64,000 nt of DNA, from contig JAJECX010000024.1 in the NCBI GenBank assembly GCA_022821805.1, positions 86,306 through 150,305 on the forward strand, given 5' to 3'. The position numbers and the translations under genes were made by a program. This document shows positions 26,225 to 34,202 of the stretch, in pieces. The number at the start of each line of letters is the position of its first letter. Position 1 is the first letter of the stretch. A model generated the notes under the pieces. The model was not told the origin of the DNA, searched no databases, and saw only the letters and a program-made list of their open reading frames with translations. Source of the stretch: Anaerolineae bacterium. GTDB lineage: Bacteria; Chloroflexota; Anaerolineae; Aggregatilineales; Phototrophicaceae.

Positions 26225-26376
26225 GATTGCCTCGCTTGCATTAGCGGAAGTCCCGATTCCGTCACGCCGAGTTGCTTTCGCGAATCAATCAATTGCGCTT
26301 CACTTTCTCCGTATGCCGAAGGCTACTGTCTGCTACAATTGCCGCTTGGCTCGAAACAAGCCCGCTTGGCATCCTC

Positions 26377-27663
26377 ATGCTGCCGCAAGATCTTCGCGAC
26401 AAACTTCGTCACAACACTTTTGTCAACCTCTGGGACGGCAGCCTGTTCGGCTTTGGCGTTTCGGGCTTGGCATCATATGTTACCATAATCCCGCTTTTCC
26501 TGTCTTTCCTCACCGAATCGACCGCCCTCATCGGCTTCGTCGCCACGCTCTTCCACATCGGCTGGCAAGTGCCGCAATTGCTCACTTCCAGCTATGTCGC
26601 CAGCATGCGGCGTTACAAGCCAATGGTGCTGGCGGCGACCCTGGCAGAGCGCGTGCCCTACTTTGGTTTGGCGCTACTGGCGCTAGCGATTCCCACCATC
26701 GGCATTGATATTGCGCTGATCTTGGCGCTTATTCTGCTGACGCTGCAATCCCTCGCTGGCGGCTTCACCGGAACCGCCTGGCAGAGCATGATCAGCAAAA
26801 TCATGCCGCCCCACCGCCTTGGATCCTTCTTCGGCATACAGTCCGCCTGTGTCAATCTTTTTGGCGCGGCCGGCGCCTTGCTCGCCAGCCTAATTCTGGA
26901 ACGGCTCGACTTTCCAGAAAGTTTCTCGCTCCTCTTCACACTTGCCGGCATCAGCCTTCTGCTGTCTTTCGTGGGTTTGGCTTTGACCTACGAGCCAAAG
27001 AGCCCGCCGCATAATATCGCCGAGCCGGTCAAATTGCGCCAATTTGGCGGACGGCTGCGGCAGATCCTGCGCGGCGACGACAACTTCCGCTGGTTCCTCA
27101 TCGCGCGCGGGCTCACCGCCGTCAGCTTGACCGCCATCTCTTTCTACACCATCTATGGCATTCGCCGCTTCGATATGTCGCCCGAATTCGTCGGCATATT
27201 GACGAGCGTCCTGTTGGTTTCAAATACGTTCAGCAGCTCGGTCATCGGCTGGATCGGCGACCGCTGGGGGCATCGACGGGTCTTGATCGCCGCGAATGCG
27301 CTGACCGTGCTGGCGATCACGATTGCCCTGTCTGCAACTGAGGTGAGCTGGTTTTTCGCCGTCTTTGCCCTGACCGGCGTGGTCAACTCGGCGCAGTGGA
27401 CGACGATCATGACGATAACGGTGCAATTTGGTTCAGTCGCGGAGCGCCCCTACTACATCGGCATGGCGAACACCTTCATTGCGCCGGTGACGATATTCGC
27501 GCCCATCATCGGCGGCTGGCTGGTGGACGCGGTCAACTTTGAACTGACCTTCGGCATCTTCGCGCTGGCGGGAATACTGTCAGTATTGGTCTACCTCATG
27601 CTTATGGATGACCCGCAAAATGTGACCAGCGTCGCGAAGCGGAAAGTCGCCACCGCCGACTAA
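26377..27663 (+). CDS. MFS transporter
   Basis: About 12 hydrophobic segments; GDRWGHRRVLI loop; start chosen at internal ATG. Confidence 0.8.
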   Translation: MLPQDLRDKLRHNTFVNLWDGSLFGFGVSGLASYVTIIPLFLSFLTESTALIGFVATLFHIGWQVPQLLTSSYVASMRRYKPMVLAATLAERVPYFGLALLALAIPTIGIDIALILALILLTLQSLAGGFTGTAWQSMISKIMPPHRLGSFFGIQSACVNLFGAAGALLASLILERLDFPESFSLLFTLAGISLLLSFVGLALTYEPKSPPHNIAEPVKLRQFGGRLRQILRGDDNFRWFLIARGLTAVSLTAISFYTIYGIRRFDMSPEFVGILTSVLLVSNTFSSSVIGWIGDRWGHRRVLIAANALTVLAITIALSATEVSWFFAVFALTGVVNSAQWTTIMTITVQFGSVAERPYYIGMANTFIAPVTIFAPIIGGWLVDAVNFELTFGIFALAGILSVLVYLMLMDDPQNVTSVAKRKVATAD

Positions 27664-28811
27664 TCGTCGAGCGGCAGCATCATTTTCGACAGGATTCTGT
27701 CCACATCTTCCAGCGTGATCGGTCCTTCGTCCGCCATGAGCTTGACCTGCGCCGTCGCCAGGTTGAGTACATCCTCGGGTAGCGCAAGGCCGCCGCGGGC
27801 GGCGTATTCGCGGATGGCGTTGCGCCCGACCAGGCGATGCGCCACATCAATGACGCGCGACATACCAAAGTCTTCCGGGTTGATCGCCTCATAAGTCATC
27901 GGGTTCTTCAAAACGGCATTGGTATGGACGCCCGCTTTATGATGAAAGGCAACCTCGCCCGTGATTGGGGTATTGTAGGGAATCTCGATGCCCAGCTTTT
28001 CGGCGACGACCCTTTCAATCTCGGGCAGCAGACAAAGATCATATTTGTCCACCAGCGCCTTGTCGCAGGTATAGAGACGGCCCACCAGCGCGCCCATCGG
28101 TGTTATGCCATTGCGTTCGCCGATGCCAAGTATAGTGGTGTCGATGTGGGTCGCCCCCGCCTGCAGGGCGCAGAAGGCGTTGGCCACCGCGCAACTGCTG
28201 TCGTTATGTCCGTGAAACTCAATATCGCAGCTGACCACATCGCGCAGGTTGGAGATGAGATTGTAGGTTTGCATCGGGTCGGCGATGCCCACTGTATCGG
28301 CGACGCCGACGCGGTCCACCCCCGCCAAATCCATCGCGCGGTACACCGTCATCACATCGGCGAAATTGCTGCGAAAGGTGTCCTCGGTGCTGAAGCGCGT
28401 TTCGATGTCTTGTTCATTGAGATAGGCGACCACCTTCTGGCCAATCTCGATGACCTGTTCCAGGCTCTTGCCATGGCTGTATTCACGCATATAGTTGGAG
28501 GTCCCGATATATACGTCCGCGCCATCAATGCCGCAGTCAACCGCCAGCTTGGCATCGTCCATATTCGCGCGGATATGCGTGAGCAGCTTGTAGCGGCGCC
28601 GCATATCGGCAAGCGTGCGGATCGCATCGGCGCTCTGCGGGCTGGCCACCGGCGTCGATAGTTCCATATACTCCACACCGAATCGATCCAGCAGCGAGGC
28701 GATTTCGCGCTTGTCATCAATGCTGAAGTGCGTGCCGCGGAATTGTTCGCCTTCGCGCAAGGTGGAATCAATGAAGTTAAATTCGTGTATAGAGTTGTTT
28801 CGACTGCGCAT
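27660..28811 (-). CDS. Homocitrate synthase (DRE-TIM metallolyase family)
   Basis: [44 protein letters not shown]; last gene of the lys operon. Confidence 0.87.
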
Positions 28812-28829
28812 TGGGTCACCCGGTTACCG

Positions 28830-29882
28830 TCAGATGGTCTCAAGGACTGTTTTCAATATGTCTATCGCCCGCAAGTAATCGTCGAGGTTGGTATGTTCAT
28901 CCGGAGTATGATCCAGCGCCGAATCGCCCGGTCCATAAGCGACAATCGGGCAATCCCAGCGTGGACCAACGATGTTCATGTCGGAGGTGCCGGTCTTGTA
29001 AACGAAGCGCGGAACGCCGCAAGAAGCGCGAATGGCGCGCCGAAACTGCCGGCTCAGGGCGCTATTCTTGTCTCCGCGAAAGGCGCATTCCGCGCCCCTC
29101 GCCCTAACCGCTGCGCCGTCGCCGGCGGGAAACTCGCGCGCGATCTGAGCCGGCGCTACATTTGGCGGCAGACGAAAGCCGATCGTCATCTCGGCGATGC
29201 CATTGACACCCTCCTGCCAGGTATTGATATCGCGGATCGACGCGTCAAGGCGCGCAAACAGCGAGGAGATGCCTTCATTGAAATCGTTACAGTATGATTC
29301 GATGCCCCGCCAGTACCGCAGCGCGCGTTCGGCCGGGCTGGGCGCTTCGCCCGCGCTATGCGCTAAGCCGCCTTCCCAACGCCAGTCGAGCAGCAGCCGT
29401 CCCTTGTAACCCAGGGTGATGCGGTCCCATTGCGACGGCTCGCCGATGACGCAGAAATCCGGCTGGTACTGGCTTAAGGCGTAATGCGCGCCGCGGCTCG
29501 TGGCCGCCTCTTCTTCCACCGCGCCAATGACGATGACTCTTAAATCGTCAGGCAGCCTGGCTCGGCTCGCCGCCACCGCGAAGGCGCATAGCGGACCCTT
29601 GGCGTCGACCGCGCCGCGGCCGTACAACTGCCGTCCCGCCAGCCGAACCGGCGGGAAACCGGCGAAGGTATCAATATGCCCTAGCAGAACGATATGCCGC
29701 GCGCCCGAACCCATGATGCCGACAGCGTTGCCAGCCTCATCAACGAAGCTTTCGTCGTAGGCTTTGCTCGCCATCCAGGTGGTAAGGAATTCGGCCGCCT
29801 CCGCCTCTTGACGCGATGGACTGGGAATGGCTACCAGATCGCGCAGCAGTTCTTCGGCTTTGCGGTCAGATACTCCGCTCAT
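28830..29882 (-). CDS. lysK: [LysW]-lysine hydrolase (M20-type deacylase)
   Basis: [37 protein letters not shown]; lys operon context. Confidence 0.88.
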
Positions 29883-29884
29883 GC

Positions 29885-31051
29885 CTATCCCAATACTTCT
29901 GCAATGGCTGCTGTTATCAGCGAAAGTTGCTCCCGACTGATGATAAGCGGCGGCAGCAGGCGCAAGGTATTGAGTCCGGCGGGCAGGGCGAGTGCACCCT
30001 CTTCCTGCAGCGCCTTCAAAACGGGCGTCACGCGCCCTCGTAACTCCAAGCCCACCATCAAGCCTCGTCCGCGCGCCTGGCGCACGGCGCGCAATTCAAG
30101 CGCGGCCAGCTCCTTGATGAACCACTCGCCATTCACGCGCGCCTTCTCCACCAGACCTTCATCGCGAATCGCCGAGATTGCGGCGACCGCGGCGGCGCAA
30201 GCCAGCGGGTTGCCGCCGAAGGTGCTGCCGTGGGTAGCGCGCCCGATGGGACCATGAGACTCGCGCCAGCAAACCGCGCCCATCGGCACGCCGCCGGCGA
30301 TCGCCTTGCCAACCGCTATGATGTCGGGCACGATGCCCGCGTGTTCAAAGCCAAACCACCTCCCAGTTCGCCCGAACCCGGTTTGGATCTCATCGATAAT
30401 CAACATGGCGCCCGTCTGGTCGCAGCGTTCTCGCAGCGCCTGCAAATAGCCCTCAGCGGCGGGATGCACGCCACCTTCGCCTTGGATCGGTTCGACGACA
30501 AGAGCCGCTGTCGACTCGCTGATGGCGCCTCGCGCCGCGTCGATATCGTTGTAGGCGACATATTCGACGGTCGGCAGCCACTCTTGAAAAGGCTTGCGAT
30601 ATTTCTGCGTCCAGGTCAGCGAAAGCGCTCCGGCGGTACGACCATGAAATGAGCGCTTGGCCGCGACGATGCCATCGCGTCCCGTCAGCAGTTTCGCCAC
30701 TTTCAGCGCGCCTTCGATCGCTTCGGCGCCGCTGTTGCATAAGAAAAATCGATTGAGATCCGCTGGCGTGACGCTGGCTAACAAGGGGTAAAGTTCCGCC
30801 CGCCGGTCGTTGTAGAAGGATTCGTGGCTCGTGATCAGCCTGGCTGCTTGCTCGCTGATCGCCGCGACGACCGCCGGATGGCAATGCCCCAGTGCCGCCA
30901 CGCCTTGACCGCTGGTTGCGTCCAGATAGCGATTGCCCAACTGATCAAAGGCGTACACGCCTTCTCCGCGCACAAGCGCAGTCGGGCGTTTGCCGTAGGC
31001 GCCAGAACCGTATTGATCTTCGACTTCGAATAGCGTTGCCGTTTCAATCAT
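29885..31051 (-). CDS. lysJ: [LysW]-aminoadipate semialdehyde aminotransferase (AcOAT-like)
   Basis: [36 protein letters not shown] aminotransferase class III; context. Confidence 0.88.
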
Positions 31052-31857
31052 GCGCTAAACCTCGTGCCAGCTCCAGAAAGCGCCCGCGATACCGGATCCT
31101 TAACTCTTCCATCAGCGATGATGACGCGCCCTACACCCTGCGTCAGCGCCTCCTGCGCGGCGAGCACCTTTCGTTTCATGCGACCCTGCGCCCAATCCAA
31201 GGCGCTGTCAATCCGCGTCAAGGGCACTTCAGCGACCAACGACGATTCATCCGGGAAGCGGCGGTACAGCCCGCCAACATTGCTCAAGATGACGAGCGCT
31301 TCGGCTGCGAGCGCGCCGGCCACCGCGGCCGCCGCGCGGTCGCCATCGACATTGAGCAAACCATCGCTGCTCTGCGCCATCGGCGGCAGCACCGGCGCCT
31401 GCGCCTGGGCCAGCGCCCTTCGCAGCAGCGCCGCATCGACATCAGTGATGGAACCGCTGTGATCATCACGGACTACGCGCACCCGTCCCTTCACAACCGC
31501 GCGGATCGCCGTCTTGCGCTTGCCTAACAGCGCCACATCTTCGCCGACGAATCCGATCGCCTTTATCCCGCGCTCTCGCAAGGCAGTTTCCACCTGCGCA
31601 TTCGCCAATTCGGAGGCGCGAACGTAAATGTCGCGCACCGCCGGCGGCGTATAACGCGAGCTGTGCCCGGAAGGCGATGTAAGCGATTGCACCTTGACGC
31701 CACTTTCGCGACAAAGTTGATTCATAATCGCGCTGACGCCATGGACAACCACGATAGGACGCCGCTTCCCGATTGCCGCCAGATCATCGCAAGCGGCGTG
31801 AAGATCCAAGCCTTCGCCGCCGCCCAGCTTCACCACCAGCAGTCCTGCTCCCGACAT
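31048..31857 (-). CDS. lysZ: [LysW]-aminoadipate kinase (ArgB-like amino acid kinase)
   Basis: VVKLGGGEGLD, IVVVHGVSAIMNQL, NVDGDRAAAAVAGALAAEALVILSNVGGLY. Confidence 0.88.
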   Translation of the reverse strand: MSGAGLLVVKLGGGEGLDLHAACDDLAAIGKRRPIVVVHGVSAIMNQLCRESGVKVQSLTSPSGHSSRYTPPAVRDIYVRASELANAQVETALRERGIKAIGFVGEDVALLGKRKTAIRAVVKGRVRVVRDDHSGSITDVDAALLRRALAQAQAPVLPPMAQSSDGLLNVDGDRAAAAVAGALAAEALVILSNVGGLYRRFPDESSLVAEVPLTRIDSALDWAQGRMKRKVLAAQEALTQGVGRVIIADGRVKDPVSRALSGAGTRFSA

Positions 31858-31871
31858 TGCCGCGCCGCCCT

Positions 31872-32897
31872 CTAGGGATAAATGCCGGGAAACTCGAGCC
31901 CGGCAGTTTCTTCCAGCTCGTACATGAGGTTCATCGATTGCACGGCGCTGCCGGCCGCGCCCTTGCCCAAATTGTCCAGCGCCGCGATGACAACCAGGTG
32001 TTTCCCGTCGTCATCGAGCTCGAAGCCAATATCGCAGAAGTTCGTTCCCGCCACGACGCGCGGTTCAGGCAGGCGGTGCAAGCCCGCCTTGCCGCTCACC
32101 AGGCGCAGGAATGGCTCATCCCGATATTGCCCGCGGTAGAGCCGCCATATATCGCGCTCCACTTTGGCTTCCTTCAAATAGCAATGCGCCAGCAAATGTA
32201 CGCCGCGCACCATCTCAATCGCGGTGACAGAAAAATGTATCGGTATGTCTTCGCCCAATACCAACTGCGCCTCCGCCAGGTGGCGGTGTCCGGTGGCTTT
32301 ATAACTGCGGACGGCGCCGCTGCGAATTGGATGATGCGATCCGGGATTGCTTTTGTTGCCGCCCTCGGATGAACCGACCTTTATCTCGATGGCGGCGCGC
32401 TCAAGGATGCCCGCCCGCGCCAGCGGCAGCAGCGCCAGATTGACCGCCGTGGCGTTGCAGCCAACCCCGCTGACGTATTTCGCGCCGCGCAGGGACTCGC
32501 GATTGACCTCGGGCAAGCCGTAGATGAAGCGGAAGAGCCAGCGCGGCGCCGGATGCGCTTGGCCATAAAATCGCTCATAGGTGGCGGCGCAATCGAGGCG
32601 AAAATCAGCAGAGAGATCAATCAACTTGTCCGCCAGATTCGCGTAATGTTCAATGTTGCGCGCGACCGCGCCATGCGGCAGCGCCAAAAACAGGAGATCG
32701 CATGCTTCCAAAGCATCGGGATGAATGAACTTCAGTCGAGAGACGTCGCGCAGATTCGGATGTACTGTGTGCGCGTAGCGCCCCGCATGTTCGCGGCTGG
32801 TGATCTGCGTCGCCTCGACCTGCGGGTGAAAGCGCAGCAGGCGCAGCAGTTCGCCGCCGGTATAGCCGCTGCCGCCAACGATGCCGGCGCGAATCAC
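31872..32897 (-). CDS. lysY: [LysW]-aminoadipyl phosphate reductase (ArgC-like)
   Basis: GIVGGSGYTGGELLRLL; VSGVGCNATAVNLAL. Confidence 0.9.
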   Translation of the reverse strand: MIRAGIVGGSGYTGGELLRLLRFHPQVEATQITSREHAGRYAHTVHPNLRDVSRLKFIHPDALEACDLLFLALPHGAVARNIEHYANLADKLIDLSADFRLDCAATYERFYGQAHPAPRWLFRFIYGLPEVNRESLRGAKYVSGVGCNATAVNLALLPLARAGILERAAIEIKVGSSEGGNKSNPGSHHPIRSGAVRSYKATGHRHLAEAQLVLGEDIPIHFSVTAIEMVRGVHLLAHCYLKEAKVERDIWRLYRGQYRDEPFLRLVSGKAGLHRLPEPRVVAGTNFCDIGFELDDDGKHLVVIAALDNLGKGAAGSAVQSMNLMYELEETAGLEFPGIYP

Positions 32898-33772
32898 GCC
32901 ACCACTCCGATTTGCCCGATGACGAAGTCTATGACCTCTTGCGCGATGTCGACGCCGGTGGGTTGGCTGCTGTTGCGAAATTCCATCGTATGGTTGATCT
33001 CGTTGACGACGAAATTGCCGCGCGCGTCTTCCAGCAAATCAACCGCAAGAATGCCGCCGCCGACCGCATCAGCCGCGCGCGCGCAGATATCATCGAGCTC
33101 GTCGGTCACCGGGCAATTGGTCGCCAATCCACCGCGAGCGGTATTGGTGATCCAGTGATTGGATTCGCGGTAGATCGCGGCAATCGTGCGGTTGCCAACC
33201 ACGAAAGCGCGGATATCGCGTCCCGGCTTGTCAACATATTCTTGCACGTAATAAGTGTGATGATTGTAATCGCCCAAGGTCTGCCGATGCTCCAATATCG
33301 CCTCGGCGCTGTCGCGGTTGTGGACGCGCGCCAGCAGTCGGCCCCAGGAGCCGGTCACCGGCTTCAGCACCGCTGGATACTTGACATCTTCAATCGCCTG
33401 CATCGCGCTCTCCGGCGTGAAGGCGACGCGCGTATGCGGCTGCGGGATGCCGCGCTTCATGAAGGCGATGCTCGTCCGCAGCTTGTCGCTGCACGTCGCC
33501 GCCGTCTCATACGTGTTGAACGCGCGCAATCCCCAACTATTGAGAATCGCCAGCGCGTACATGCCGCGCGATGTGCTTACGCAACGCTCGAAGACCAGGT
33601 CGTATTCGCGCCAGGCAATGCCAGAGGGCGCCAACTGCTGGGCGCCACAAGTGATATCGAAGTTTAATTCGCGATCGAGGATGATGTCCGGGCTGATGTC
33701 GCGCTTGTTAAACGCAGCCAGTATCAATTTTTCTTCCGCGCGTATATGGGTGACGAGCAGGGCGATTCTCAT
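32894..33772 (-). CDS. lysX: LysW-alpha-aminoadipate ligase (RimK/ATP-grasp family)
   Basis: ATP-grasp ligase pattern (AVLKPVTGSWGRLLARV, FVVNEINHTMEFRN) directly after lysW. Confidence 0.9.
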   Translation of the reverse strand: MRIALLVTHIRAEEKLILAAFNKRDISPDIILDRELNFDITCGAQQLAPSGIAWREYDLVFERCVSTSRGMYALAILNSWGLRAFNTYETAATCSDKLRTSIAFMKRGIPQPHTRVAFTPESAMQAIEDVKYPAVLKPVTGSWGRLLARVHNRDSAEAILEHRQTLGDYNHHTYYVQEYVDKPGRDIRAFVVGNRTIAAIYRESNHWITNTARGGLATNCPVTDELDDICARAADAVGGGILAVDLLEDARGNFVVNEINHTMEFRNSSQPTGVDIAQEVIDFVIGQIGVVA

Positions 33773-33777
33773 GTGAG

Positions 33778-33954
33778 CTATTCTCCCCAGTCCTCTTCCA
33801 CCTCGGGCGCCAACTCAAGTTCAATCGGCGCCAGGCACATAATTTCGAGCTCGGTACCGCATTCGGCGCAAGACACCAACTCATTCTCCATGGCGTCAGA
33901 CGGGATATAGACTACGCCATCGCATACCGGACAAATTGGCATTTGATTAGTCAT
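33778..33954 (-). CDS. lysW: Amino-group carrier protein LysW
   Basis: 58 aa; CPVCDG...CAECGTELEI zinc-ribbon-like pattern; C-terminus EEDWGE; AGGAG RBS before ATG. Confidence 0.93.
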   Translation of the reverse strand: MTNQMPICPVCDGVVYIPSDAMENELVSCAECGTELEIMCLAPIELELAPEVEEDWGE

Positions 33955-33985
33955 CGCGCATTCTCCTGAGGCACTGCCGCACAAC

Positions 33986-34008
33986 AAAAAACCCGCCGTA
34001 TGGGCGGG
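33986..34008 (-). terminator. Intrinsic terminator in the lysW leader, proposed attenuator
   Basis: Minus strand CCCGCC-CATAC-GGCGGG followed by TTTTTT, about 30 nt before the lysW ATG. Confidence 0.85.
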
Positions 34009-34041
34009 CGCGTGTTCGATTTCTTCATCCAGCGCAATCAA

Positions 34042-34049
34042 GCCCATAC
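34042..34049 (-). promoter_or_regulatory. Proposed antiterminator segment GTATGGGC
   Basis: Perfect 8-nt complement of GCCCATAC inside the terminator (plus-strand 33998-34005); sits directly after the leader-peptide stop codon. Confidence 0.7.
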
Positions 34050-34109
34050 TTAGCGGGTGCGGGTCTTCTTCACCTTCTTGCTGCCGTTTGCACTGCTGAT
34101 CGCGCTCAT
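34050..34109 (-). CDS. Putative 19-aa attenuator leader peptide MSAISSANGSKKVKKTRTR
   Basis: ATG at 34109-34107, TAA at 34052-34050; codons AAG AAG GTG AAG AAG ACC CGC ACC CGC at the end. Confidence 0.7.
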   Translation of the reverse strand: MSAISSANGSKKVKKTRTR

Positions 34110-34173
34110 CTTTACTTGCCACGAATCTCCGAGCCGATTCAAGCGCTAACTTTATCGCTTGTAACGCGTTTCC

Positions 34174-34202
34174 ACTATAATCACTTTGTACGAAAAAAGC
34201 AA
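34174..34202 (-). promoter_or_regulatory. Putative promoter of the lysW operon (TTGCTT-N17-TATAGT)
   Basis: -35 at 34202-34197 and -10 at 34179-34174, 17-nt spacing, upstream of the leader peptide. Confidence 0.55.

Follow-up and report, generated by a model that had tools for sequence, protein, structure and literature searches.

The question raised by this locus is how a lysine operon of the LysW (alpha-aminoadipate) type is controlled in a member of a large, mostly uncultured bacterial class. The 64-kb stretch of Anaerolineae DNA analyzed here, referred to as the window, carries lysW on its minus strand (33778..33954). This first gene of the operon encodes the amino-group carrier protein (Pfam PF21344, 1.5e-13), and its best NCBIfam matches were LysW models, with scores under the model cut-offs. 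The remainder of the operon comprises lysX, lysY (argC-like), lysZ, lysJ, lysK, and homocitrate synthase (27660..33772, minus strand), the last of the listed genes being homocitrate synthase (28811-27660). The homoaconitase genes lie beyond it (26224-24391), and an MFS-like transporter gene on the plus strand (26272-27663) sits between the two. DapB was absent from the genome in a search that was positive in 12 of 14 controls, and ArgJ was found; therefore, we consider the LysW operon to be the lysine route, with arginine made separately.

The sequence upstream of lysW was reread, and the promoter, mini-ORF, GTATGGGC segment, terminator, RBS (33967-33963), and lysW start (ATG 33954) described in the first-pass annotation were all located in their places on the minus strand. 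The promoter-like element TTGCTT-N17-TATAGT (34174..34202; TTGCTT at 34202-34197, TATAGT at 34179-34174) was missed by a strict consensus scan of the window; the nearest relatives retain its TTG and TATAGT/TATGGT when the leaders are compared. The leader ORF MSAISSANGSKKVKKTRTR (34050..34109) begins with ATG 34109 and extends over 19 codons to the TAA at 34052-34050. The peptide ends in KKVKKTRTR, and its four Lys codons (AAG AAG GTG AAG AAG) occupy 34079-34074 and 34070-34065. A poor Shine-Dalgarno precedes the ATG, and it is weak throughout the window's genus. The GGAG fitting a GTG at 34122 in another frame, raised earlier as a caveat, is indeed present, but relatives do not preserve the GTG, and it was rejected as the leader start for this reason.

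Immediately 3' of the stop codon lies segment 2, GTATGGGC (34049-34042), the predicted 5' arm of an antiterminator. It is the exact complement of segment 3, GCCCATAC (34005-33998), the predicted 3' arm, and the claimed 8-nt complementarity overlapping the terminator is therefore confirmed. Segment 3 overlaps the 5' arm and loop of the intrinsic terminator CCCGCC-CATAC-GGCGGG-TTTTTT (33986..34008; stem-loop 34008-33992, T6 33991-33986), which is placed between the promoter and lysW, and between the leader ORF and the first gene. Segment 1, CCCG (34054..34057), can form a protector hairpin round the stop together with the UGGG of segment 2. The terminator was predicted to fold at -13.7 kcal/mol. 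For the antiterminator, the predicted energy was -20.7 kcal/mol (z -3.4), which no shuffled sequence equalled. The second GCGC:GCGC pairing, earlier proposed to extend the antiterminator, did not stand out, as a slid control was equally good and partner swapping gave no difference.

We regard the window element as very probably a ribosome-mediated lysine transcription attenuator that senses charged lysyl-tRNA. Its design is most likely that of classical ribosome-mediated attenuation, in a form that serves lysine, occurs in Chloroflexota, and among relatives is tandem and codon-swappable. From the sequence, we infer the following course of events in the cell, from stalling to termination or read-through. 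A ribosome would follow RNA polymerase, translating the 19-codon leader. With ample Lys-tRNA, the ribosome would arrive at the stop codon and mask GTATGGGC, so that the terminator would form and transcription would stop before lysW. With scarce Lys-tRNA, it would stall some 18 nt earlier, at the AAG codons, and leave GTATGGGC free; the freed segment would pair with GCCCATAC, block the terminator, and allow lysW-X-Y-Z-J-K-hcs to be transcribed. Without translation, the small stop-codon hairpin (CCCG/UGGG) may hold segment 2, and the operon would stay off. The classical attenuation read into this leader by the first-pass annotation is supported by Lys codon conservation, antiterminator covariation, ribosome geometry, and agreement between leader codons and pathway across the class.

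The LysW leaders of relatives came from two sets, 30 genomes of the family and 80 named Chloroflexota/Anaerolineae contigs. Of the 85 distinct leaders, most have a mini-ORF bearing KKxKK or KKKQSKK right before the stop. In leaders of the window's kind (type 1), positions K1 to K4 were Lys in 55/58, 69/70, 68/70, and 69/70 (95-99%), with AAA/AAG third-base swaps, and the homologous leaders thus keep the Lys codons. The residues that follow vary among relatives (TRTR, TDTH, TNTH, TGTG, TCTR, TATH), and the ACCC.C RNA sequence adjoining the stop is largely retained despite this variation. These data bear on the dual sensing offered as a speculation in the first-pass annotation, in which the leader would report arginine as well as lysine through the TRTR following the Lys codons. 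Two Arg codons do occur in the window and in L031, with a single Arg in some relatives; however, they are unconserved, and the retained part is the ACCC.C at the stop, as expected of an RNA segment pairing with UGGG. Moreover, ArgJ gives arginine its own route, and the arginine genes of other Anaerolineae have separate RR leaders, which makes dual sensing very unlikely. Within 12 kb of ArgJ in the window's own genome, no Arg leader was found.

The paired segments were then considered as RNA. Over the 70 type-1 leaders, 92.7% of antiterminator cells were paired, and covariation reached 0.355 vs 0.156+/-0.013 after shuffling and no more than 0.08 with slid partners, the segment 2/3 pairs co-varying as AU/UA, CG/CG, UG, GC, and others. 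By duplex energy, the own antiterminator partners beat swapped partners in 300/300 trials (31 unique segment-2 sequences). The antiterminator is thus kept via compensatory changes in the 70 leaders. Conservation extends to the type-1 terminator, which shows some compensatory change as well. The putative type-1 protector hairpin round the stop has moderate support: own partners (CCCG/UGGG in the window) were better in 295/300 swaps, whereas swapped partners did as well in 5/300. No covariation was found for the type-2 protector hairpin.

Counted from the first base of the codon in question, segment 2 of type-1 leaders starts a median of 18 nt past the last Lys codon and a median of 3 nt past the stop codon. 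A ribosome reaches about 12 nt beyond the first base of the codon in its A site; given this reach and the spacing, segment 2 would stay exposed when the ribosome is held at Lys and would be covered when it stands at the stop. The geometry agrees with ribosome footprints in 61/70 leaders for the Lys position and 69/70 for the stop. The corresponding type-2 segment (TCTGGATAG) overlaps the stop codon, and the same footprint logic applies.

A model, R1, matched the window at E 3e-14, its sole match in the window's own genome, and had matches in 52/61 family genomes. Four R1 matches (L149-L152) fall in unrelated places, look like chance, and were discarded. In about 29 relatives, the type-1 element is followed by a type-2 element (..KKKQSKKPDTRSG and stop, TCTGGATAG, CCGCCGTCCAGA) and then by lysW; both members of the pair bear Lys codons, and the type-2 antiterminator and terminator covary too. 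The window's genus has type 1 only, as a single putative attenuator. In sister lineages, additional R1 matches lie ahead of a second lysine operon, homocitrate synthase-homoaconitase, which stands apart from the lysW operon; there too the element is often tandem. In several relatives, homocitrate synthase and homoaconitase are adjacent under one common candidate Lys attenuator.

The type-2 scaffold was followed across Anaerolineae. Model R2 matched 119/250 class genomes at E 0.01, a count in which the weak matches include plain terminators, as do matches above E ~1e-5 generally; the weak R2 matches were set aside as attenuators since many are plain terminators. In the scans of the class and the phylum, only a small number of candidates was scored in each genome (10 in the phylum scan, where absence says little), and therefore the taxon range is approximate. 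Leaders were also read individually, with the downstream genes named by NCBIfam. The type-2 scaffold with Lys codons precedes lysW and homocitrate synthase, whereas with Arg codons it precedes argC, argG, and carA (L204, L208, L219, L220, L228, L230, L231, L234, L236, L238, L239, L245, L246, L256, and L261; for example, EIRRRTDERSDPASG, IRRTLRYLPDYMSG, and RKPRRPRKQPDLVSG, each up to the stop). In L237, a Pro-rich leader, INPPCPVEPSDKPDLRSG, stands on the same scaffold before proS (proline--tRNA ligase).

For the codon counts, leaders were listed by hand, a few lysine leaders being without a visible ATG. An RR doublet was present in 15/15 arginine leaders vs 1/22 lysine leaders, L240 being excluded because its frame is ambiguous, and KK was present in 20/22 lysine leaders vs 2/16 arginine leaders. 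The Lys-versus-Arg majority gave a Fisher p of ~2e-9 with kinship ignored, three arginine leaders belonging to one genus and two to another. We consider it likely that Anaerolineae possess a modular attenuator family with one RNA/stop-codon scaffold (..PD..SG and stop, TCTGGATAG, its complement, and a terminator) and pathway-exchanged sensor codons, often as tandem Lys attenuators, replacing riboswitches, T-boxes, and repressors where these pathways' amino acids are concerned. As part of the same joint and likely reading, the exchanged codons would be Lys for lysW/hcs, Arg for argC/argG/carA, and Pro for proS.

The codon swaps also weigh on the idea that the nascent peptide arrests the ribosome upon a small-molecule signal, independently of tRNA charging. 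The strongly conserved C-terminal KKxKK motif would be in keeping with such an arrest, but the N-terminal residues vary freely among relatives, and codon sensing fits better because on the sister scaffold KK gives way to RR or Pro depending on which pathway lies downstream. Peptide arrest is thus highly improbable.

The attenuator reading was also set against an ordinary terminator next to a chance mini-ORF, with no regulation. Terminator-like sites are common, as the terminator search of the window found this site within a total of 2 vs 1.2 expected; however, the terminator sits between the promoter and lysW, and the complement, Lys codons, and covariation are conserved, so that chance is hardly credible. 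A mechanical scan for a Lys-rich mini-ORF, a terminator, and a complement of 6 nt or longer returned one match over both strands of the 64-kb window, the lysW leader only. Applied to the lysW loci of relatives, the scan returned 68 matches, all within the 41.8 kb that lie upstream of lysW in the sense orientation; another 747 kb of these loci yielded none. A ligand riboswitch or T-box operating the terminator, which the terminator/antiterminator pair might suggest, is just as implausible, since the promoter-ORF interval conserves nothing but a short inverted repeat, and Rfam covariance models run over the whole window gave no family at the gathering score, lysine riboswitch and T-box included, and both identities were rejected.

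Leader-peptide attenuators for amino acids are known from enteric bacteria (trp, his, thr, leu, ilv, and phe). The proposed lysine attenuator resembles them in the regulatory codons near the mini-ORF end, the mutual exclusion of antiterminator and terminator, joined by a putative protector, and the operon for the same amino acid. Unlike them, it would sense lysine, occurs in Chloroflexota, and has an antiterminator arm that abuts the 3' side of the stop codon or overlaps it; because of this position, the terminating ribosome itself would mask the arm. Leader-peptide attenuation has reportedly been described for the lysine cluster of Thermus, which has the LysW pathway in common with the window operon. 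The lysine riboswitch (L-box) and T-box likewise control lysine or amino-acid genes via alternative terminators, whereas in the proposed attenuator a translating ribosome would do the sensing; neither family matched in Rfam. In Salmonella, mgtCBR has serial leader ORFs, mgtM and mgtP, with attenuators that answer different signals, ATP and proline, mgtP sensing charged tRNA-Pro (PMC3641672). The Anaerolineae tandem pairs similarly place two leader ORFs with attenuators in series, although they carry Lys codons in both leaders, and the window has a single leader.

A search of a limited open library returned no description of such an Anaerolineae attenuator system, and we believe that leader-peptide attenuators for lysine and arginine are unreported beyond the well-studied phyla. 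The attenuator would explain how the LysW pathway may be controlled in this class. With the natural Lys/Arg/Pro swaps on one scaffold, evolution has in effect run a codon-swap experiment; the mechanism is thereby open to direct tests, and there is a route to annotating amino-acid regulons purely from sequence.

Some further features were observed. Two leaders on the type-2 scaffold have no evident sensor codons: L200 (near 1407-1502), with MSFKNAQRNKKYTRKLDSASG before a GlmS/SIS-like gene, and L218, with MTTLATINQRNPQPAFGSG. A U-rich run (GGGAUUUUUGG, GGGCUUUUUCG) follows the stop-codon hairpin in type-1 leaders such as L071, L099, and L030, and might cause transcriptional pausing or act as a weak terminator. 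Between the promoter and the leader ORF of the window, a conserved inverted repeat, CAAGCG-ATAAAGTTAG-CGCTTG (34138-34164, minus strand), has one arm that is imperfect in places. Its arms vary among relatives (L016, L055, L009) round a conserved TAxAGT, and the repeat may represent a further -10 element, a hairpin in the 5' UTR, or an operator.
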